From contig JAPJBO010000352.1 in NCBI GenBank assembly GCA_030068145.1, positions 1 to 64,000 on the forward strand: 64,000 bases of DNA, written 5' to 3'. A model generated the notes under the pieces. It searched no databases, was not told the DNA's origin, and saw only the letters and a program-made list of their open reading frames with translations. The stretch comes from Diplonema papillatum (Eukaryota; Euglenozoa; Diplonemea; Diplonemida; Diplonemidae). Below, in pieces: positions 14,601 to 42,915 of the stretch. Positions within the stretch are counted from its first letter, which is position 1, and the number at the start of each line of letters is the position of its first letter. A program made the position numbers and the translations under genes.

Positions 14601-17600
14601 TACATCTTCGAAACAGATCAGGGTGAAGATGCTAGTATCGATCATGCATGAAAGGCGCAGGGTTCTGTCTGAACATTAAGCCAACGTTTGCCTCTCCGTA
14701 GTGCTTAATTGTGCTGCCTCGTATACACATAAATACGCACACCCTTTTTTACGATGCTGCGAATTAACCCATTCAACGAAGGTCACCCGGAGACTTCGAA
14801 ATCCCGGATCCTTTCCCTCCCGCCTTGACAACCTCTCTCTCTGTGGCTCTCGTCTTTCGGCGAACATCCCAGAAACACAACAAGTTTTGGCAGCCGCTGC
14901 TTAACAAAATGTGGTTCATGTACTTAAAAGAACTCAATGCTTAACAACTGCCGAGAAATCTGACCACCCCTTCGCGCGGATTGCCCCGGCATGGACGTGG
15001 GAGCGGAACAAGACCTGGGGAGTACCGACGTTTTATGCGTTGGTAGCGTGGCTGTCGGACATGCAATGGACCGAGAACGGGCAGGCGTCAATGGGGTGGA
15101 GCTTGCGATCGACTTTTTGAGCTCTTCTCGGGCCTCAGCATGCCGCTGCACGGGAATGCGCCGAAGGGGGTGAGAGAACGGGGAAACGTCCTGCGCTGCA
15201 TGATGAGCGCGTTGGACAAGCTGGCGGCACAGCAAGGGCTGGGAAGCTGCATGAGAGGAGAGAGGGTGTGCCCGACGACGTCGCTGTCGTTCATGGGCAT
15301 CACGGGGATATCGGGTATACGGCCCAGGCCACGCTTTCGCGAGGCACACACGGGGACGATACTTGAGGAACAAGTGAAAGGAAGCGATGTAGGGACGCAG
15401 TGCCCGACGTACCCTGACTGGACGATCGGGAGAGCGGCGAGGTGGGCCCTGCCTGCCCCACCACAACTGCACCCAGACCCCGTGCATATGCCGGGTGTCG
15501 GTATAGAGAAGGCACTCGTCACGTGCGCGACCCATCACAAAGGGAAGTGTGAGGCGTGCAGAGCACTCGTCCGAAGGGACGTTCCCACGGTAGAGATGTG
15601 CTGCCGGCACCATCACCACGCGAACGATGGGCAGCCGATCGCGGTGTGCACAGAGCACAGCACGACGAAGTGCGGCGAGTGCAAGACGGCGGCGGCGTGT
15701 TGCCGCAGCGGGCATCATGCCTGCCGCACGCATGGCAGAGGGACCTGCCAAGAGTGCAAAAGGCTCCCTACGCTGACGCAGAGGCGACCGGCGGCATGTT
15801 GCAGCCGCGGCCACCACCAGTCCAACAAGCCGAACGTCGAGTCAACCCCCGGACGCAACAAGAAGAAGAGGCCCTCCTCACCCACCCAGGTGGGTGTACA
15901 GCGGGAAACGCCAGTAGGAAAGCGAGCGGCGCGAGCGCCGCTCGCGGCAACTAAAAAGGAGACGGCGACGACCGCACGGGCGACCAAGAGGCCGCCACCA
16001 ACGCCAGGAACCAGCGAACGACCAGCGCTGAAGAAGAGGGTGCTCGGCACCCCGAAGGAAGGCCTGATCGCCGGCCGCAAGCGGAAGAAGACGAAGGCGA
16101 CCACCCCCGACTCAGGGGTGCAACGAAGGAAGAAGAAGGTACCGAGGGCAAGCAGCTCTCAGAAACGACCGGGGACCACGGGCACACCAATGCCCTCGAA
16201 AGTGAAAAATGGACACACGTGCCCGCCCTCGTACTCGCCGACTCAGTCGATCTACATCTGAATGACACCTCAACCACAATATGTTGTCGACAACAAACAA
16301 GTAAAAGAATAAAACAAAACTACGCATTTCTTTCATATCCGATACCCTTTTGCAGGAAACGGCTCCGAACAGCCGGAGCAGATCGAAGGATCCGCGTCGC
16401 CGAACGACGCCCGGGCGCACGAGAGGCACGCCCGGCTGGCGGCGCAAACCGCGGAACCCGCGAACGAGCACCAGATCGACTCGTTTTTGGTGAAGCTCGA
16501 CCGCCCGCCGCCGCCGCCGGCGATGCCCGAGCCGGCAAGCCCGGCGGCTTCGGCCCCGCTGCACGACCGCATCGCCGCCGCGGTGCGCGAGGCGGCCGGC
16601 GGCCCGATGGGCTCATCGGGGCTGCTGTCCCTCGACGACGAGCTGCCGCCGCAGATCCGGGGCAAGCCGATCAACCTGAACCCCAGCACCATCATTGGGT
16701 CGCCGGCGCCGCCGCCGCACGGCGCCGGCGCGGGGCCCGCCGCCGGGCAGCTCGTTTCGCGGGACGCGACCCTCCGGGACAGCACCGCCACCCGCGACGA
16801 CAGCCCGTGGGAGAACACGCCGCGGGTGCTGCCCATTTGCGCGCGGGAGCCGGCGGGGGGGTCGCGGGAGGTCGCGCTCCGCGGCGCTGCGGACATCGAC
16901 GACGACGCCTCCGACATCCGCGTCGTGAACGAGTGCTTGGTACGCCGGGAGGGCCCTCTCTTCTTTTTTTTATCACCGCGTGCAAATGTGTGCGGAAACT
17001 GAACCGGCCGGAATCGGACCTTCTGATCATGACCAATGCCCATTTGTAACCTCTGCTGTGTCACACTGACTACCGCATTGCCAGTACTAGCGAGAAAAGT
17101 GTCGGTCATTTGGTGCCCCGGCACTTTTGCTGAAAAGAGCTAACTGTATGGGGGGGCGTACGTGGATATTGAGAAACCGCAAACAAACGGCGACGAATGC
17201 TCGTAGTCTACCTTGTCTCAACGCGTTATGAATGAAGGAGACGATGATCACCTGGAGACACTACCCACCCGGGATTCATGATGAACATTCATGATGAATG
17301 AGAGAAGCAGGAGTCTGCCCAAACTAAGCTAAGCTTGTTCCCCCCACCCTCAACAAGTCCGTCTACCACAATCATGCACTAAGCCCCACGAAAAAAGCAA
17401 CAGCAAAAGGTCAAAAGTACATCAATTACACTCATACGGGATCGTCAACATAAATGCAACCCAAACCAGGACGAACTAGCAGCCCGCCGCCTGCAAATTG
17501 GGAGGATGCCCGAAGCGGAAGTGCGGCAGCTGCAGCAAAGGCAACCCCTCCAGCAGCACCAACAACAACAACCACCGACGAAGCCGCAACCCGGTGAGGT

Positions 17601-20600
17601 GTGCCATTCTTGCTCGCGCTGTCATTTGACCTCCACCCGGCTGGGCAGAGGGCCACAATCCCTCATGGGCTCATTCCTGATCCCATTATTCAAAAGAGAC
17701 CGTTTAGCAGCGTTAGTGTTGATGGTGTGTGGGCCTTTGAAGCGTAGATGATGCCTCTCGCGCTGCTCCCCTTGAGGTTCCTGGCTCACGCCAAAGCGCC
17801 GCCACCCGGCTTAAGGGGTTGCGGCATCAGGTGTGGGCCAGGGCCAGGGACTGTCCGGAGGGGTCACCACTCACCGGCAGTAGTGTTGATGGTGATCCGT
17901 ATCTATAGAATCCGGAAAGAACTCAGCACTACCCCAGCAAGAACCAGGGACAGAACGGGGCGAAAACCTGGCACAAACCTGGGGTCTAACAGGAACTACG
18001 CACATGCACATATACAAGCTGCTGGTTGTCGCGGCAATTATTCGGTCACTTCCGTCTTCGTCCCTTGAAGATGAAGCGAGCACTCTGTCAATCGCAAATT
18101 CGATGCGGGCGATGTCCGGGTGAGCCTCACGTCCCTTCTTTTAGCTTGTATCACCCGCTTGTGCCAGCTTGACACCACTCGACGTAGTCGCCCGAGTTCC
18201 GCAGGGGAGCAGCAGTGCTGCAGTGCTTCGGAAACGCTGTTGCCCGAGGAAAGGTGCAGGTGAGTGCCGCCACCTCCGCTTTGCGATGTCGCAGCGATCG
18301 CTCCTACCGCTGGTGGGTTTCTCCTCCGACTGCTTTCTCTAAAGGGGGGGGTCGAATGAATGAAAGAACTCAATGCTTAACAACGAACGATTTAAAAGCT
18401 ACAGTTTCTGTACTTTATTGGCTGCTCACGCGGCCGGTAAAGGGCGCCCGGAATTCATCCAGGACAAACACCCTCCAAAACACAACAGCGGTACCCATCC
18501 GCGAAAAGAACGCGGGCTACCCGTAGCTCCGTCAAAATGGACAGGATTAACGCCCTGATCCAGGAAGCGCGCGGGATGGCGGAACGCGCCAACCGCGACC
18601 AGCTGGATGCCGTTTTCGGCATCCTCGACGTCGCCACGACGCTGCTCCGGCGTCAGATCGAGGCGAACAGCGGGGAGCCGGAGCAACAACGGCCGCCACT
18701 GCAGCAACAGCAGCAACCGAAGCAGCAGCAGCAGCAACCGAGGCAGCAGCAGCAGCCAGAAGCAGCAGCGGCAGCAACCGAAGCAGCAGCAACCGCAGCA
18801 ACAACCGCAGCAACAACCGCAACAGCAACAGCAACAGCAACAGCAAACGCAGCAGCGCCGCCCGCAGGAGCAGCAACAACCACAACAGCGGCCCCGGCAG
18901 GGGTACGCGCCCACCTGGGCAGAAGTGACCAGGCGGCCCCCGCCACCCGGTAAAATCGACGCCGCCGACTGGGACGCGCCGGTACTCCCCTCCCCCGACT
19001 TCGAAGCTGTCGAAGCTGGCCTCTGGGTCGCCCCGAGCGCCGCCGCAGCCGAAGAAGCGAAGGGTCCCGCAGCAGATGCGGTGGACGTCGCAGAGCGCGA
19101 CGGGAAGCGGGTGCGCCTCGGCGTGCTGTGCCGGGAGGCCTTCGACGACGCACGCCGGGGCCCAGTGCTGCTGGAAGGCGGGCGGGTACAGGATATGTAC
19201 CTGTGGGCGGGCGGCGGGCCGGTATGCCAGCGGGGCCAGGTGAAGGTCCAGAAGATGCCCGTCGGCGCGGTGAAGCCGAACGCCGCGACGACGGTACTGG
19301 CCTTCGTCGTGGCCAGGAAGCACGCCTCGCCGGAGACCTGGGAGTGCGTCGAGAGGGACCCGCGCACGGCCCTGACTCGCCTGTGCCGGAGGGCTGTCAA
19401 GACGGCCCTGAAGACGGAGGTCCGCGTCCCCGACGACGCCATGTGGGGCGTGTCGTCGCAGCAGGGGAGGCGCGAGCTGGTCGTGCGGGTGCCCCGCGCG
19501 CAGGCCGAAGCGATCCTGGCCAGCTCCGGCCGGGACGGCGGATTCTGGCGGTCGACGGAGAAGGCCTGCCGGGACGCCATGCCGGTGGTCGCCCTGCAAA
19601 AGGGGGTCACGAGGGCGGTCGCGCTGGCGGTAGCTGAGCGGGCAGGCGCGGCGGCAGCCGGTCTCGTGCTCACGGGCAGCCGCCTCCTCGTGCGCGCACG
19701 CAGCGGCGCTGTGCTGGAGGAGGTGCGTGCGGCGGCCGCCGAACACGCTGCTGCCCCCCTCGAGTCGAAGCCGCGCTTCCTCGTGGTGGGTGCGACGCCG
19801 CGGGAGCACGAGGCGGACGTCGAGTACGTCCTGCGGGAGGCCGGCTGGCAGGTCGACGTCGCCACGTCGTTCCTGCGAAGTGGGGCCCGGGTTTGCGTGG
19901 TGACGTCGGCGGCCGACCCTCCCTTCAGGGTGCTGCAGCGGGAGGGGGCACCCGACCTCCGGGTAAACCCGTACGACGGAGGTGAGCTGCCGAGGGAGCG
20001 GCGCAGGCGGCTCGCTGCCGCCCCCAGCGGGAAGCGGCGGATGCGGCTGCCGGCGGCGGAGGTGGACGAGCTACCGCAGCCGGCGGCCCCGCCAGCGGAC
20101 GCGGCCGGACAGAAGAAGAGGAAGACGCCGGAGCCGGCAGCGGACGGGCCGGAACCCGCTGGGGACGATGTCCCAATGGACGGTGCAGAGGCGGGCGGGC
20201 ACGTCCACGCCTTCGGGAGCCCGGCGAAGGCCACCGCCGGTTTCTCCTGCGCCCTATGCGGGAAGAAGAAGGCGAAGGGCCAGATCCGCACGACATGCGA
20301 GGGCTGCAACGTCGGCGCGTGCAAGGCGTGTGCGGGTTGACTGCCACCGCGACCCGTCCCCGGCGCCAGTTGTGGCCCCGCCAGGCCGGTGCAGGCCGCC
20401 CAGCGCGTGAGTCCCAGCACGCAGTTCGACGATGGAGCAGGCGAAGGTGGTGGCGATCCCTCTTCTTCTTCTTCTTCTTTTTGCCCCCCTCTCTCCCACA
20501 ATGCGCCAGGCCTCATTAGCCCGGGAAATTTACCCGCAGCGCACAAACAATCCCCCCACAAAGGCCAGCGTGCCTGCGGGGGGGGCCCTGTCAGGGTGGA

Positions 20601-23600
20601 GGGAGCAATCCCCGGACTAAGCTTCCAGACGATCCCTCGGGATCTTCTGGACAGACTGAGCCGAGTACCCGAGCTTGGGCCGAAAGCCACTTGGAGGAGG
20701 CTGGGGGGAGAACAAAGCAGAGAGACCCAGCAGTGGGGACACGCCTACCGACAGGGCGGACCCCCGGTCAGACTGGAACGGGGTATCCCCGAGGGGCCCC
20801 TGAAAGAAGCGGCGGATCTCATACGTGACCGTCTCGGGTGGGAACCGGACCAGTTGCTGGCCAACTGGTACCGGAGGGGAGTGGGGATCAACCCCCACAA
20901 AGACCAGAGAGAACTGGGTCCGAGGGTAGCGACCATATCGCTCTTGAGCGACACGGTCATGGAGTGGGAGAGGGGGAGCCGGAGAGTGAGAACCCCCCTG
21001 CCGGTCGGCACACTGTGCCACATGGAAGGCGAGGCCAGGAGCCTGTGGACACACGGGATTCGTCCCGATGATGTCGCACGCGACCGGGTCTCGCTCACCT
21101 ACAGGGCCGTGCGCGAGGCCGCCTCCCAACGTTTGCAAGGCCGGGACACCCCGCAAGAAACTCCCCCCATGCCCCCCCCGCCCCGCCCTCAGGCGTCCTC
21201 CCCACCCCCCCAGCAACAGTTCAGCCCCGCGCCACGTACTGACTTGTGTAATCGCCAAAGAACTCTTATATCTATTAAGGAAACTACTAGACAGCAGCTG
21301 TTAAGCGCTGGAGACATCGAACAGAACCCGGGCCCCGGCCGCACGGAGATGAAGTTCGCGACGTTGAACGTAACTAGCTTACTTCAATATCTCCCAGCGG
21401 CCGACGCGGTGGAAGCGGATCTTCTCTGCTGCCAGGAGGTGACACTCCTTCCGTGCAAACGGGCGCAGGCGGAGGAATACCTGCGGAAATGGTGCTGCCA
21501 CTGGGGCCTGCCGCCTCCCGGAAGACTCTGTAGAAACTCCGGTAGTCGCTCGACGGTGAACGCCGCGAACGGAGGGCTCTCCACTCTAGTACTGAGACCG
21601 ATACCTGCGTACGATACGATGACGGCGCTCTCGCACGCAGCAATACGGTCCCCGGACCGAGTGAGCCATACGGTAGTAGCAACAGGGGCCGGCAACACGT
21701 TCGTGCACGTGTTCAATGTCTACTGCCCTTCCGGAAACGGGAGGGCGGAGAGCGAGGAGCGTGAGGACATGCTGGAGAAGATCCTCTTCGCAGCGGCAGA
21801 TAGCCTCGGTGACGTCCCCATAATGGTGATGGGTGACCTGAACACGGAAGAAGACCGGTCCCCTGTGCTGCGGAAGGCACTAAGGAACGGATGGTCCGAC
21901 GCAGCGGAACTGCACCATGCGCGTACCGGTGACACACCGCCACCACCGACCTTTACCAGCGCCCGGACGACAGGCACGAGGATCGACCGCATACTCCTCA
22001 ACCGAATAACGACGGGAGCTTTCCGTCAATGCGTCACCACCGCGGTGAACGTACCGGGACACCGGCTCGTGACAATGACCCTGGACATTGCGGCGCTGCG
22101 CCAAATCGTGTGGCGATTTAAAGTACCGCGGGAAATCCCTACCGAGGGGGGACCCAAGTGGGGCCTCTCGGACACAGAAGCTAACAGGGAAGCCGTACAG
22201 AGACTGACCAACTCCGATTTCGCAGAACGGCTGGCAGCACAGCGAGTGGAAGAGGCCTGGCTCGAGTGGTCACGAGTCAGTGAGCAGTACTTGCAGGATG
22301 CCTTCGGAATCCCTGCGGAAGAAAGGGGAAGGAGTACCGGCCGGGGGATAAAGACGTCGCCTAAGAGAGTCTGTATCACGGCAAGCACTGCGAGCGACGG
22401 GTCGGGGGCGGCGAACAGCAGACAGCTACGGCTCCGGAAGGCCATCCACAGGATGGAACGCATCTGCAGCTACCTTGCGCAGCGACGCGGGCCGGAGGCA
22501 GTTCCGCATGAAGTATCCCGTTGCTGGCAGAACAGCAGACGGCTGGCACAGGCGTGCATGAAAGGTGGCCAATGGACAGAAGGATTCCCGGATCATGAGG
22601 AGGCGAAGCAGCTTCTCACGGCATTGCGGGAAGAGACGAGTAGGCTCGGAAGGGAAGGATCGGCGGCCAGGTTTACGAAGTACCGAGACAAGCTGAACGA
22701 GAGGGCCGATGCGAGCAGACGATGTCTGACAACCATCTGCGCCGGACGCGCTGAGCCGTCGGGGGTGTTGCGAACGGGGGCGGGTGTGACTGCAAATGTT
22801 GACGAGATGGACGAGGCGCTGAACACTGCGTGGGACCCTATCCTGCGTAAGTACAAGGACGGGCCAGAGCCGGAGTACGAGCCGTTTCGGGATCGGTTCC
22901 AGGATCACATCGGCCCACACTTGATGGAAGCCGGAACAATCACGGGGGAGGAGCTGCGAATTCTGCTGAGGAAGAAGCCGAAGAAAAGCGCGTCAGGGGT
23001 GGATGGCTGGCGTATGGCTGAACTGCGGGAGTTGCCGCTCCCCCTGCTGAATGCACTTGCAGACGTCATGAACCTGGTCGAAGCGACTGGGGACTGGCCG
23101 GCAAGCATGACAACTGCGCTGGTGTCGATGGTGCCGAAAGATGAGAGCCAAGACCCGCTGCACACGAGGCCGATAACCGTCACATCCGCCGTGTACCGCT
23201 TGTGGGCCTGCCGCAGGCTTGCGGACATTGTCCTGTGGCAGGAGGGGTGGATCGAAGAAGGACAGAAAGGCTTTCGGCCGGGCCACCGGATCGAGGACGT
23301 CTTGATGGAGATAGGGCTCGAGGTGGAGGACGCCTTGCTGGACGGAGAGCCGCTCTACGGAGTGGCGCTGGACTTCCGGAAGTGTTTCGACATGGTCCCG
23401 CGAGAGGTAGTGCTACGCTTGGCTGAGGACTTAGGACTGCACGGTCGGGTTCTCAAGCCGCTGAGGGCGATTTACAGTCTGCTCGCGAGACGCTTCAAGT
23501 TGCCGCTAGGGGTGGGCAGGGAGTTTAGTGTGACCAACGGTATCCTTCAAGGGTGCCCTGTGTCCGTCATACTCATCAATGCCCTGCTGTCGGTAGTGAT

Positions 23601-26225
23601 GAAAGCGGTCAAGAAAGAAGCTGAGGGTGTGAGTCCTAAGTCGTACGCGGATGATGCCACACTACTGTCCAGGCTGTCAGAGGCCGCATTGCAAAAGGGA
23701 GTCGACATTGTTGACGAGTTCTGCACACTCACCGGAATGCAGCTAAACCTCGAGAAGACCATCGCATTCTCGACGAGGCAGAGGCACCAGTCGACGCTCA
23801 GACTCCGAAGCGGAAATGCGCTGCTTCGATTTAGCAAGTCCGTCACGTGTCTGGGGGCCCTAGTCTCAACGGCGAAGAACAGAAAGGAGAGGTCCGACTC
23901 TAAGAGGGTAGAGAGGGCGGCGGCCCTAGCGGAAGGCCTCCGCCACGCGCCATTCCGGTACGAAAAGCGGGTCCGTATTGTGCAGTCGAATGTGTTGCCG
24001 GCAGCGCTATCAGGCTGCTCCTTCGCGCCGGTGTCGAAGGTGGCGATGAAGCGGTTGACGACGTCGGTGATGGGTCTGATCTGGGGTGGAGCAAACCCGA
24101 AGCGCGCGAGAGAAATGGTCCTGAACTTCCAGGAGAAGGGCCACCTGACGGACCCCGGTACGTGTTTAGCGTACCGGGTGACGACGGCGTTCTACGCGGC
24201 GTGCGAGAGGCTACCGCGACTGCTACCTCTGATGGAGAGTATCCGGGGGCGGTACGCCGAGGGGGACCAACCCCTCGGCCCAGTCGGGCTGGCGATGAGG
24301 AGCATGGAGGAGTGTGGACACATATGGGAACCTGGGCCCCTATCTCGCACGCTACGACGGAATGGTGCAGTGTTCGACCCGCTGGCCTCGTCGCCCTCGA
24401 AGAGGGGGCACGAAGTGAGGGCGGACCTGAGAACGAGGACGTGGGCCCGACTGATGGCGAGAAGGCCAGGATATCAGGGGCTGGAAAGAGCCGACTTGGA
24501 GCGCACGAATGCGTTCTGGAAGACGAGGGAATGTTCCGCGCACACGGCGAAGCTAATTCGAGTCGCGATTGCGGGGGGTGTGAACACGGCGGAGTTCACG
24601 TCGCGGATGAGGCAGGCCGGAGCTGAGCCGCAGGCGCCCAGCTGCAAGCACTGTGGGAGCGGCGTGACGGAGAACGCTCGTCGTGCGCTCCTTTTCTCTC
24701 CAAACGGTACACAATTCCAGGATTTTGCCCAAAAAAAGGCCCACACGGTACCGTCACCCGAGTGTTTGTGGGCCAAGTGTTTATGGGCCATACCGGGTCA
24801 TCAAATGACACGTATTTTTTACCAGAATGTTAGGGCCAAGTGTTTATGGGCCATACCGGGTCATCGAATGACACGTATTTTTTACCAGAATGTTAGGGCC
24901 AAGTGTTTATGGGCCATACCGGGTCATCAAATGACACGTATTTTTTACCAGAATGTTAGGGCCAAGTGTTTATGGGCCATACCGGGTCATCAAATGGCAC
25001 GTATTTTTTACCAGAATGTTAGGGCCAAGTGTTTATGGGCCATACCGGGTCATCAAATGACACGTATTTCTTACCAGAATGTTAGGGCCAAGTGTTTATG
25101 GGCCATACCGGGTCATCAAATGACACGTAATTTTTACCAGAATGTTAGGGCCAAGTGTTTATGGGCCATACCGGGTCATCAAATGACACGTATTTTTTAC
25201 CAGAATGTTAACTTCCCCCCTCTTGGCATCGTCTCATGTGGTAAAACCATTCGACAACCCCTCCGCAGAGTACGCTCGACCGCGCTTTGAAGCGCGCGAA
25301 GTCAGCCACGATCACCAAGACGGGGGTCCTCCACCCTGCGCCGGGCAGCCAGCTGTTCTCTCCGCCGCACAACGGCCGCGCTGCCCCGCCGCAGCCCAGC
25401 CAGCAGCACCTGCAGCCGGCCGCGGCAGCCGCCCGGTCACCGCCCCACCAGCCCCCCGCGGCTGCTGCGTCGCCGGCGGGCGACCCCCACGAGCACTTCC
25501 GGCGCCAGCAGCAGCAGCAAATGCAGCTGCAGCAGCAGCTGCAACTGCAGCTGCAGCAGCAGCAGCAGCAGCAGCACCTGCTGCTGCACCGCAAACGAGA
25601 CGCGGCCGCGCACCCGACGCCCGTGGCGCACCCCCGCCCCGCCGACGACGAGCGGCGGCCCTGCGGGCTCCCGGGGCCCCCGCAGCTGCGGCAAGGCGGC
25701 GCGGCCCGCCACCAGCTGGGGGCGAAGCCGGCGGGGCTCCACCCGCCCGGCGGCCTGGACGGGATCCCGGTGGTGTCGACGCCGCACGCGGGGCGGCCGT
25801 TCGGGGCGGGGGTGTGGGGCGATGACACGCCGCGGAGGGCGCTCAATTTCGCGGGCAGCCCGCCGAGCGCGCAGAAGGCGCGCTCCGCCGTCTTCGAAGG
25901 CCAGCGGCTGCTGCGGGAGTCGCTGGCTGACGTCGGCAAAGCGGACCGGGCGATGCACTTCGCAGAGGCGCTGGCGGTGCTGTCCGTCCCGCACCTGGTC
26001 GGGGTCCTCAACGAGTTTGTCCCGCCGCACTTGAAGCCGAACCTCGAGGTTCGCTGGCGCGCGGTCATCGCCCAGTACCAAGACAGGTCGAGGGCGAAGC
26101 TGCTCCGGGGAGACCCGCTCAGCATCCAGACACCCACCCACCACGTCGTGAACCACCCAGCCTCGCCGCTTTGCACAAGACGCACGTCGCCACCCCGCAG
26201 GTTGCAACCTGTACTCGGTCCCTGA
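11644..26225 (+). CDS. Large low-complexity protein, three exons
   Basis: Proposed exons: 11644-13993, 16356-16939 and 25269-26225 (phases 1 and 0), together 1,296 residues. The donors are GTATGC (13994) and GTACGC (16940); the acceptors are CCCTTTTGCAG and CCCCTCCGCAG. The N-terminus (about 10-115) has alternating strand-like segments (VLYVRLVDKVTSKKR, RVVALTGNSIVLADP, HIVIKVEG) that could be a PH-like domain; this is inference. The rest is Pro/Ser/Gln/His-rich, with PQQQQQQYHHP, SR-like RRSRSRSA, a possible CFYCHSPAQRTH metal site and, in exon 3, a poly-Gln tract. A helical C-terminus (ESLADVGKADRAMHFAEALA) follows. An alternative first donor (GTGAGG at 13966) would need another exon. Intron 2 (8,329 bases) carries a LINE in sense orientation. 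The family is not recognised. Confidence 0.6.
13938..14760 (+). repeat. Direct duplication spanning exon 1 end and intron start
   Basis: The segment from GGCGCGTCGTCATCACGCCG (13938) through the donor region, CTCCACTATTTACATCTTC, the GATGCTAG element and CTCGTATACACATAAATA recurs from about 14425 with about 90% identity by eye. The copy contains both candidate splice donors but no coding context upstream. Between the two lies an inverted copy of exon 1 sequence (14268-14380). Confidence 0.8.
14268..14380 (-). repeat. Inverted copy of exon 1 3' end
   Basis: CTGTTCGGCGGGAACGG and TCGACGCCCGACGGCGACTC are the reverse complement of exon 1 sequence at about 13770-13905 (CCGTTCCCGCCGAACAG, GTCGGGCGTCGA). 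Sense exon and inverted copy are separated by about 400 bases, so the pre-mRNA could fold back on itself here. Confidence 0.75.
14931..16270 (+). mobile_element. Probable retroelement fragment in intron 1
   Basis: Begins with AAGAACTCAATGCTTAACAA, the same word that stands at the 5' side of the LINE at 18366. It contains one long open frame (15140-16261) not required for the host gene. The end near 16270 is arbitrary. Assignment as a mobile-element fragment rests on this shared word and on the Cys/His-rich ORF, and is an inference. Confidence 0.4.
15140..16261 (+). CDS. Cys/His-rich basic protein in intron
   Basis: Open frame of 373 residues starting MPLHGNAPKGVRERG. Residues about 130-220 hold a repeated metal-binding pattern: CATHHKGKCEACRALV, then CCRHHHHANDG, CTEHSTTKCGECKTAAACC, and CRTHGRGTCQECKRL. 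The C-terminal 140 residues are strongly basic (KKKRPSSPTQ, GRKRKKTKATTP, RRKKKVPR), suggesting nucleic-acid binding or nuclear location. It lies in sense inside an intron of the gene at 11644-26225. A Cys-rich nucleic-acid-binding ORF1 of a retroelement would fit, as the neighbouring LINE ORF1 also ends in a Cys-rich module. It could instead be an alternative exon. The frame is intact, which suggests recent insertion or selection. Confidence 0.5.
   Translation: MPLHGNAPKGVRERGNVLRCMMSALDKLAAQQGLGSCMRGERVCPTTSLSFMGITGISGIRPRPRFREAHTGTILEEQVKGSDVGTQCPTYPDWTIGRAARWALPAPPQLHPDPVHMPGVGIEKALVTCATHHKGKCEACRALVRRDVPTVEMCCRHHHHANDGQPIAVCTEHSTTKCGECKTAAACCRSGHHACRTHGRGTCQECKRLPTLTQRRPAACCSRGHHQSNKPNVESTPGRNKKKRPSSPTQVGVQRETPVGKRAARAPLAATKKETATTARATKRPPPTPGTSERPALKKRVLGTPKEGLIAGRKRKKTKATTPDSGVQRRKKKVPRASSSQKRPGTTGTPMPSKVKNGHTCPPSYSPTQSIYI
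16940..18365. other. Host intron 2, part upstream of the LINE
   Basis: No gene is seen. Near 17080-17126 a minus-strand segment (CCGGGGCACCAAATGAC) resembles the 63-bp tandem unit at 24772-25212 in inverted orientation. At 17280-17346 a weak copy of the CTAAGCTAAGCTTG dispersed repeat follows CATGATGAACATTCATGATG. Confidence 0.5.
18537..20340 (+). pseudogene. LINE ORF1, Gln-rich with Cys-rich C-terminus
   Basis: The start at ATG 18537 gives a helical, protein-like N-terminus (MDRINALIQEARGMAERANR), then Pro/Gln repeats. Within the CAG/CAA tract (about 18720-18850) the plausible frame shifts by one base; downstream, the frame used by GYAPTWAEVTRRPPPPGKID runs to the stop at 20338. The break is either an indel in the repeat or a site of slippage. 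The middle part has alternating strands and helices, as in nucleic-acid-binding ORF1 proteins, but I recognise no named domain. The end has a zinc-binding arrangement (CALCGKKKAKGQ, CEGCNVGACKACAG). LINE ORF1 proteins coat the element RNA. This frame is identical to that of ORF2, with only UGA between them. Confidence 0.75.
20338..20340 (+). promoter_or_regulatory. In-frame UGA, candidate readthrough site
   Basis: GCGGGT-TGA-CTGCCACCG. Codons are open before it (ORF1) and after it (16 codons to 20389, then ORF2). UGA followed by C, and especially by CU, is a leaky context by established knowledge; the strongest known context is UGA CUA. ORF2 has no in-frame ATG until 20959, downstream of the AlkB HxD motif. 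This favours readthrough, though re-initiation at a GTG or a stop gained by mutation cannot be excluded. Confidence 0.5.
20341..24711 (+). CDS. LINE ORF2: AlkB-like, 2A, APE endonuclease, RT
   Basis: Open frame continuing ORF1 after the UGA; residues are numbered here from the GTG at 20389. The AlkB-like domain spans about 100-245, with HxD at His170/Asp172 (NPHKDQRE), distal His222 (WTHGIRP) and Arg233/Arg239 (RDRVSLTYRA). A Pro-rich linker and the 2A motif (304-316) follow. The APE-type endonuclease (about 321-570) shows MKFATLNVTS, CCQEVTL, VMGDLNTEED, RIDRILLN and PGHRLVTMTL. The reverse transcriptase (about 860-1150) shows KKSASGVDGWRM, ALDFRKCFDMVP, NGILQGCPVS and SYADDATLL, with the YADD Tyr at residue 1086. 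A C-terminal Cys motif (CKHCGSG) is cut short at about 24690. The domain order after 2A is that of APE-clade LINEs, in which EN nicks the target and RT primes on it. The AlkB module is not part of the standard LINE set. Confidence 0.88.
20690..21120 (+). other. AlkB-like 2OG/Fe(II) dioxygenase domain
   Basis: Segment of ORF2. The pattern fits the AlkB family: ANWYRRGVGINPHKDQRELG, then VATISLLSDTVMEW, PVGTLCHMEGEARSLWTHGI and DRVSLTYRAVRE. All predicted metal ligands (His, Asp, His) and the two Arg that bind 2-oxoglutarate are present, so the domain is expected to be catalytically competent. AlkB enzymes remove alkyl groups from nucleic-acid bases; some plant RNA viruses carry one to repair genomic RNA. 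A role in protecting or demethylating element RNA or cDNA is inference. Confidence 0.85.
21298..21336 (+). promoter_or_regulatory. 2A ribosome-skipping motif
   Basis: Encodes LLSAGDIEQNPG|P, an exact match to the D-(V/I)-E-x-N-P-G|P consensus, with the preceding Leu-Leu and Gly typical of active 2A sequences. Skipping would release the AlkB part and start the endonuclease product at Pro316, five residues before MKFATLNV. 2A motifs are known in trypanosome L1Tc and in some animal APE-type LINEs, where they sit N-terminally. Confidence 0.92.
24757..25212 (+). repeat. 63-bp tandem array, seven units
   Basis: Units start at 24772, 24835, 24898, 24961, 25024, 25087 and 25150, with a partial unit before the first. 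Each carries GCCAAGTGTTTATGGGCCAT, ACCGGGTCATCAAATGACAC and TTTTTTACCAGAATGTTAGG. Differences are single bases. Because 63 is a multiple of three, the LINE frame stays open across it, encoding seven 21-residue repeats (AKCLWAIPGHQMTRIFYQNV...), which is probably fortuitous. Confidence 0.95.
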
Positions 26226-28817: not shown

Positions 28818-37326
<8,509 letters not shown>

Positions 37327-42390: not shown

Positions 42391-42915
42391 TCATTCCTCA
42401 TAATGAAAGTGTGATACCAAAGAAACACAGGATAGCTAGAACCAAAACAGGAGTTACGCCAGGTAAAAAGCGAATGATTGAAGGCATTGGGGAAACCGCT
42501 TCCTCGACCTATTCTCAAACTTTAAATGGGCGTGAGCTCGGGGTTACTTCATAAAACCCTGACGTAGAATCCTGGTTCTAAGTGGGCCACTTCTGGTATC
42601 TGGTAAGCAGGGAGAGCTGACTTAAGGTGTCCGAGTGATCGCTTATCAGATCCCACAAAGGGTGTCGGTTCATACACCCACATAGCCCTTACTTGCTCTC
42701 AGAGAAACCCCATTTAACAACGGTCACCCGGGGACCCTGAAGTTCCGGAATCTCAAGCGAACTTTGACTCTAAAAGCCCATCAGCCAATTCCACAGGGTG
42801 CACCGATCACAAATAAAGACCCAAAACAATTTGACATGTGCCCGGGCTACTGAAAACGTGTGAGTTGCAACAAACGGCGACGCGGGTCGGGCATGTCTCT
42901 CGCGCGGTAGGCGCC
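42391..42915. other. 5' flank of the large two-exon gene
   Basis: Bases 42650-42915 repeat the 41730-41985 flank of the broken copy (ACACCCACA, CCCATTTAACAACGGTCACC, GCGAACTTTGACTCTAAA). The shared part presumably includes the promoter and leader. No specific promoter motif is clear. Confidence 0.5.

Follow-up and report, generated by a model that had tools for sequence, protein, structure and literature searches.

An AlkB-type domain ahead of a 2A motif in a multicopy APE-type LINE family of Diplonema papillatum

The DNA analysed here, positions 1 to 64,000 of contig JAPJBO010000352.1 of the Diplonema papillatum assembly GCA_030068145.1 (C352:1-64000; the window, 64,000 nucleotides in all), holds a long interspersed nuclear element (LINE) whose second open reading frame (ORF2) encodes an AlkB domain, a 2A motif, an apurinic/apyrimidinic-type endonuclease (APE) and a reverse transcriptase (RT). 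The element is a member of a multicopy APE-type LINE family in which AlkB lies in front of 2A and APE-RT, and it is made up as follows.

18363..18381, + strand: flank directly 5′ of the element, AAAGAACTCAATGCTTAAC, resembling the sequence 3′ of ORF2 in sister copies
18382..18420, + strand: spliced-leader sequence at the 5′ end of the element, 38 of 39 nucleotides matching, mismatch at position 4
18537..20340, + strand: ORF1, start MDRINALIQ at 18537, glutamine-rich tract, main frame 18607-20340, cysteine pairs toward the end
20338..20340, + strand: UGA stop codon of ORF1, then CUG, with ORF2 running on in frame
20341..24690, + strand: ORF2 frame (AlkB, 2A, APE, RT), first methionine at residue 207, match to sister copies ending at 24690
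20608..21120, + strand: AlkB domain, Pfam match at 20815-21105
21313..21336, + strand: 2A motif DIEQNPGP, predicted skip between G (21331-21333) and P (21334-21336)
21349..22080, + strand: APE endonuclease (Pfam Exo_endo_phos)
23158..23772, + strand: reverse transcriptase (Pfam RVT_1), YADD at 23644

Pfam matches in the window ORF were RVT_1 (E = 7.9e-19), 2OG-FeII_Oxy_2 (5.5e-12) and Exo_endo_phos (1.1e-8), and the hallmarks of an APE-type LINE are present, with APE placed before RT and both the APE residues and YADD kept. A first-pass annotation, made from the sequence alone, had described AlkB, an exact 2A motif and an APE beginning within five residues of the skip site; Pfam, the motif and the sequence bear this out, the predicted skip site being followed by P-G-R-T-E and then by the APE start MKFATLN. 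The LINE that it placed at 18366..24711 is indeed there, but the element starts with the spliced leader at 18382 and the sister match of ORF2 ends at 24690. In the window copy, ORF1 starts at 18537 in one frame and continues in another, the switch falling within or close to the CAG/CAA tract; the sister ORF1 in contig C2440 is a single frame of 686 amino acids. ORF2 of the window copy is truncated, about 540 C-terminal residues of the database protein P0001 (from the sister copy in C1482) being missing. Just past this cut-off, seven 63-bp units, 97% alike, occupy 24770-25210, and the frame is thereby open to 25290. The 3′ end of a second copy of the LINE, 5′ truncated and with a frame break near 15100, lies at 14950-16279 and reaches up to 98% identity to the database protein P0002 (C2440) over 15116-16252.

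The AlkB assignment holds well above the curated cut-off of PF13532 (46.7 bits in the window against 31.2; C2440, 46.8; C1482, 52.2). All three iron ligands, H (codon 20896), D (20902) and H (21052), and the arginine pair (codons 21085 and 21103) are intact in the window, as the first-pass annotation had noted, and in an alignment of 44 AlkB sequences the ligands are invariant and both arginines nearly so. An AlphaFold2 model of the domain (192 residues) gave a mean predicted local distance difference test (pLDDT) score of 89.0 and a predicted template modelling score of 0.85; a complete AlkB double-stranded beta-helix is predicted, with ALKBH matches. The closest match by sequence is ALKBH8 and the closest by fold are ALKBH6 and ALKBH5, where absence of a family from the fold-match lists is not read as exclusion. 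Fold and active-site residues are common to the LINE domain and to human ALKBH5, ALKBH6, ALKBH8 and ALKBH3 (PDB), but the human proteins are cellular enzymes unfused to retroelement proteins, and the LINE domain shares only about 18-29% identity with its best fold matches. A scan of IMG/VR with the AlkB alignment returned 10 pattern matches, none of them a relative.

Selection was estimated by the Nei-Gojobori method from pairwise comparisons among the window, C2440 and C1482 copies. For AlkB the ratio of nonsynonymous to synonymous substitution (dN/dS) was 0.23, 0.16 and 0.16 (bootstrap upper bounds 0.42, 0.26 and 0.27), compared with 0.14, 0.15 and 0.15 for APE, 0.08, 0.10 and 0.06 for RT, 0.19, 0.40 and 0.33 for the 2A stretch and 0.47-0.78 for the linkers. 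The AlkB domain is thus under purifying selection, and its protein is kept about as strictly as the endonuclease. Between C1482 and the window, ORF1 shares only 25% identity despite 86% identity in AlkB. This difference suggests that 5′ modules have been exchanged or that ORF1 has changed rapidly.

The whole assembly (271,365,524 bases, 2,910 contigs) was searched for further copies, and 120 of 900 AlkB candidates, the best 150 of 1,528 APE candidates and 150 of 858 OTU candidates were scored; the comparison of domains lying upstream took in every scored AlkB and APE place, together with 100 of 517 leader places and 46 of the 150 OTU places. AlkB is present wholly or partly at the 120 scored places, of which 119 reach the query end inside APE, 105 span linker, AlkB and 2A from query residue 10 or earlier with no internal stop, and 60 have an open frame of 1,980-2,050 amino acids (one has a longer frame). 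Directly upstream of the scored APE places lies AlkB-2A at 103, an OTU-like domain at at least 11 and, among the places compared, neither at 36. Six of these 36 were inspected: four are cut within AlkB (C336, C469, C13 and C94), part of AlkB is deleted in C151, and C1201 breaks off just before APE. They look like ordinary truncated LINE copies, and five of them (C336, C469, C13, C94 and C1201) are 5′ truncated, a trait of APE-type LINEs. P0011 identifies a further locus, in C532: the end of this protein runs into AlkB (97% identity) and the same linker, and the AlkB query match at C532:31711-32520 extends into APE; a sister subfamily at 51-62% identity comprises P0004 and P0006-P0009. The domain order first noticed in the window recurs in both fully read sisters (C1482 and C2440) and is widespread, with many near-identical copies. 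The refuting case named by the first-pass annotation, sister copies lacking AlkB, is therefore not borne out, although in some copies an OTU-like domain does stand in its place.

How the AlkB domain is made can be approached from the layout around the ORF1 stop. In the three copies read through this region the stop context is TGA-CTG (window), TGA-CTA (C2440) and TGA-CTG (C1482), ORF2 is in frame with the stop, and the first ORF2 methionine (residue 207, 221 or 217) falls inside AlkB, past the HxD motif, with none before the domain. The gap runs in pairwise, and hence non-independent, comparisons of these copies are all multiples of three (15 of 15 from stop to AlkB, 6 of 6 from AlkB to 2A). 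UGA-CUA is a classic readthrough context. As AlkB has no initiation codon and continues the frame of ORF1 past the UGA, readthrough of this stop is probably how it is made, giving an AlkB tail on the ORF1 protein. The simplest reading we infer is a gag-pol-like one, yielding mostly ORF1 protein together with a minority of ORF1-AlkB plus an APE-RT that is parted from it at 2A. The exact motif D(V/I)ExNPGP is found in the window, C2440 and C1482, and skipping there is predicted to part AlkB from APE-RT. The first-pass annotation had AlkB released by 2A as an N-terminal protein; its position ahead of 2A and APE-RT stands, but without a start codon and in frame behind the ORF1 UGA it likely stays on the ORF1 protein, the part freed by 2A being APE-RT.

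The position occupied by AlkB can hold another domain. The figure of 11 OTU-like replacements is a lower bound, because the upstream comparison covered 46 of the 150 OTU places; OTU query matches themselves occur at at least 150 places. Two such forms (C249 and C311) read ORF1, TGA-CTG, an OTU-like stretch, a 2A module ending in GDVGQNPGPG (one residue different from D(V/I)ExNPGP) and APE. Their APE is 98% identical to that of the window, and both seem to have been put together by joining at the 2A boundary. Both have a methionine at the sixth codon past the stop, so that re-initiation is possible there. A divergent LINE on the minus strand of C1151 has ORF1, TGA-CTG, an in-frame OTU-like stretch of 210 amino acids and APE, with neither AlkB nor a 2A motif at that locus; its OTU-like stretch scores 19.6 bits in Pfam, below the cut-off of 23.3, and matches OTUD3 (PDB) at E = 0.0042. 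A third type of element, in C845, has a single frame that stays open from 94507 up to 100000 or beyond and contains AlkB and a sub-threshold OTU match (P0013, partial). Apart from the leader and repeats of CAG type, the alignment of C845 with the window is confined to about 520 bases that make up the AlkB module (82% DNA identity); with C1482, about 94 bases of the 5′ leader region align as well. C845:94210-100000 and C1801 share this type, with a spliced-leader start, an AlkB module at about 78% protein identity and an added OTU-like domain. An RT in this type was read by eye only, and Pfam shows no RVT in the partial protein P0013. P0014 had been taken for a tyrosine recombinase joined to AlkB, a label given by eye and unsupported: its N-terminal part lies at C1151:9834-11516, and the 50 kb of contig examined contain no AlkB. 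A second exact 2A motif, GDVERNPGP, is found at C2440:12983; it belongs to a different set of frames beyond the LINE and is close to a stretch weakly resembling P0013 (27% identity).

The 5′ ends of these elements carry a further signature. We take the leader labelled Euglenozoa 14 to be that of Diplonema. Its sequence, AACCAACGATTTAAAAGCTACAGTTTCTGTACTTTATTG, has 39 nucleotides (PMC3795323), the length reported for the spliced leader of Diplonema, whose mRNAs are trans-spliced (PMC10161547). The leader match at the element 5′ end covers 38 nucleotides in C2440, C845 and C1801 and 38 of 39, with one change, in the window, and remnants of 15 and 13 nucleotides are left in C1151 and C1482. Within the 331,553 bases examined, the 12-mer TGTACTTTATTG was encountered 6 times, always at one of these six element 5′ ends. 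Exact copies of leader nucleotides 3-39 number 517 in the genome, for which about 110 leader RNA genes are reported (PMC10161547), and an exact leader copy lies 1,972-2,368 bases upstream at at least 18 of the 57 AlkB places on C1-C371 (100 of the 517 leader places compared). With the leader at their 5′ ends, the RNA copied by these LINEs appears to be a trans-spliced mRNA. In kinetoplastids, leaders bear cap-4 nucleotides with base methylation; AlkB may, by analogy, clear such cap-type methyl blocks of the leader, which is a testable idea and not a finding. Directly before the leader, AAAGAACTCAATGC(TAAACA) is present in the window (18363-18381) and C2440, and it also precedes truncated copies (L107 and L110); AAAGAACTCAATGC is further found near 5′ ends in stretches L109 and L111, and just 3′ of ORF2 in C2440 (50 identical bases) and C1482. 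That it turns up on both sides of the element suggests a favoured target for integration, with new copies frequently placed head-to-tail after an existing one.

The explanation that we consider best, with no more than even confidence, is a multicopy LINE whose AlkB domain is produced by UGA readthrough, is parted from RT by 2A and stays on the ORF1 protein to demethylate element RNA or cDNA. Reading through the ORF1 UGA would append AlkB as a tail to the ORF1 protein, and skipping at 2A would cut off RT and leave AlkB in place; the ORF1 protein, by binding element RNA, would position AlkB on the template, where stripping of methyl groups from the RNA (or cDNA) would allow copying to finish. 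A wider version, tentative and rather unlikely, treats the interval from the ORF1 UGA to 2A as a slot for exchangeable accessory enzymes on the ORF1 tail: AlkB in most copies and the OTU-like domain in others would ride in small amounts on an RNA-coating ORF1 protein, with RT freed by 2A, and AlkB would clean the template, including its hypermethylated spliced-leader cap, so that RT copies the trans-spliced mRNA to its 5′ end. Genomic copies would then start with nearly the whole 39-nt leader because AlkB cleans the template. Several results weigh against the favoured explanation. ORF1 of the window and its sisters has no convincing Pfam match, and a structure model of ORF1 from the single window sequence was unusable (pLDDT 36.5). 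RNA folding 3′ of the UGA gave z values of -0.1, -2.1 and -2.2 in the three copies, with no consistent signal, and the stop and in-frame layout was read in these three AlkB copies only. Neither sequence (ALKBH8) nor predicted fold (ALKBH6 and ALKBH5) singles out a substrate. Some copies have an OTU-like domain and no AlkB, so that part of the family can dispense with AlkB; as to the exchangeable slot, the OTU matches remain below the Pfam cut-off.

AlkB might instead be translated by non-AUG initiation or from a separately trans-spliced ORF2 mRNA and then released by 2A as a free peptide, which we regard as unlikely though by no means negligible. Diplonema does trans-splice its mRNAs (PMC10161547), the AlkB of C845 is directly preceded by a methionine and can therefore start a protein there, and the OTU forms have their methionine shortly after the stop; however, three AlkB copies lack any methionine before the domain, and initiation near AlkB would not require the frame from stop to AlkB to be kept through whole-codon gaps. 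An active AlkB could also repair alkylation damage in cDNA or in the target DNA, or act on host RNA rather than on marks of the element RNA. ALKBH5, ALKBH6 and ALKBH8 are linked to RNA, and these give the best scores; an AlkB tethered to the ORF1 protein would likewise sit on RNA. Neither point is decisive, and we hold this second alternative to be doubtful.

Loss of enzymatic function, with the domain kept as an RNA-binding or structural spacer, would fit the finding that an unrelated-looking OTU-like domain can occupy the same slot, but it is improbable given that the catalytic residues are all kept and that dN/dS is as low as in the endonuclease. A chance chimera in one copy, or a gene-model artefact, can be practically discarded. 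The window copy is truncated and the database proteins P0001, P0002 and P0003 show no AlkB, but they do so because their models begin at or after the methionine behind 2A; ahead of P0001 and P0002, the genomic sequence codes for an AlkB that shares the frame of 2A, APE and RT, and purifying selection and the 120 scored places rule the chimera out.

The usual LINE is lean, with an RNA-binding ORF1 protein and an endonuclease-RT. Literature searches of open-licence PMC found no LINE with AlkB, in keeping with the first-pass view that the arrangement is non-standard, and a term search of the 2026 StopGo paper (PMC12846837) gave no mention of AlkB or Diplonem. The nearest published case found is a retrotransposon of another class: Ty3/Gypsy elements of Phalaenopsis orchids likewise carry an AlkB-type domain, described as having RNA binding and demethylase activity in vitro (PMC9289625). 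The orchid element is of the long terminal repeat (LTR) type with AlkB in an additional ORF, whereas the Diplonema element is an APE-type LINE in which AlkB sits between an in-frame UGA and a 2A. No integrase was among the Pfam matches of the window ORF and related proteins, and APE is present, so that the element is not a member of the orchid LTR type, although it may work like it. The L1Tc/ingi LINEs of trypanosomes, a related host group, have APE and RT in one frame and, in L1Tc, an active 2A; L1Tc also has RNase H and the Pr77 promoter/ribozyme, neither seen in the Diplonema LINE, and its described domain list is without AlkB (PMC4748587). RNase H gave no match at E <= 0.1 in P0001, a model running to the ORF2 end, and the Diplonema LINE is therefore not filed under the L1Tc/ingi clade; we know of no ORF1-UGA-ORF2 layout in that clade. 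A scan of 17000-25300 gave no match to an HDV-like ribozyme or other Rfam RNA at E <= 5, although Rfam may lack the Pr77 variant, and near the element 5′ end there was one chance-level match of 9.3 bits. AlkB and an OTU protease also share one variable polyprotein region in plant flexivirus replicases, whose relatives miss one or the other; these are replicases of RNA viruses, with the region between methyltransferase and helicase, and not retrotransposons (PMC544882).

A demethylase-type domain is thus kept under purifying selection in more than 100 copies, in a slot also fit for an OTU-like domain. Should this domain remove methyl groups from RNA, the LINE would itself supply a means of countering marks on its template; work on this question has until now used host enzymes and one plant LTR element. 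With UGA and 2A arranged in this way, the element would have an economical means of keeping an enzyme on the ribonucleoprotein and releasing RT. According to the D. papillatum genome paper, retroelements account for about 2,500 gene models and AlkB has a dozen homologues, with no link drawn between them in its account of these genes (PMC10161547); the present LINE raises the question whether some of the dozen, cited there as a sign of methylation-based gene regulation, belong to retroelements.

Elsewhere in the window, a fragment of large subunit rRNA lies at 42426-42619 (Rfam RF02543, 85.1 bits), and about 3,600 scattered 28S pieces are reported for the genome (PMC10161547). Long, nearly perfect TAC/CTA triplet arrays occupy 29668-29959, 33449-33666 and 35346-36022.
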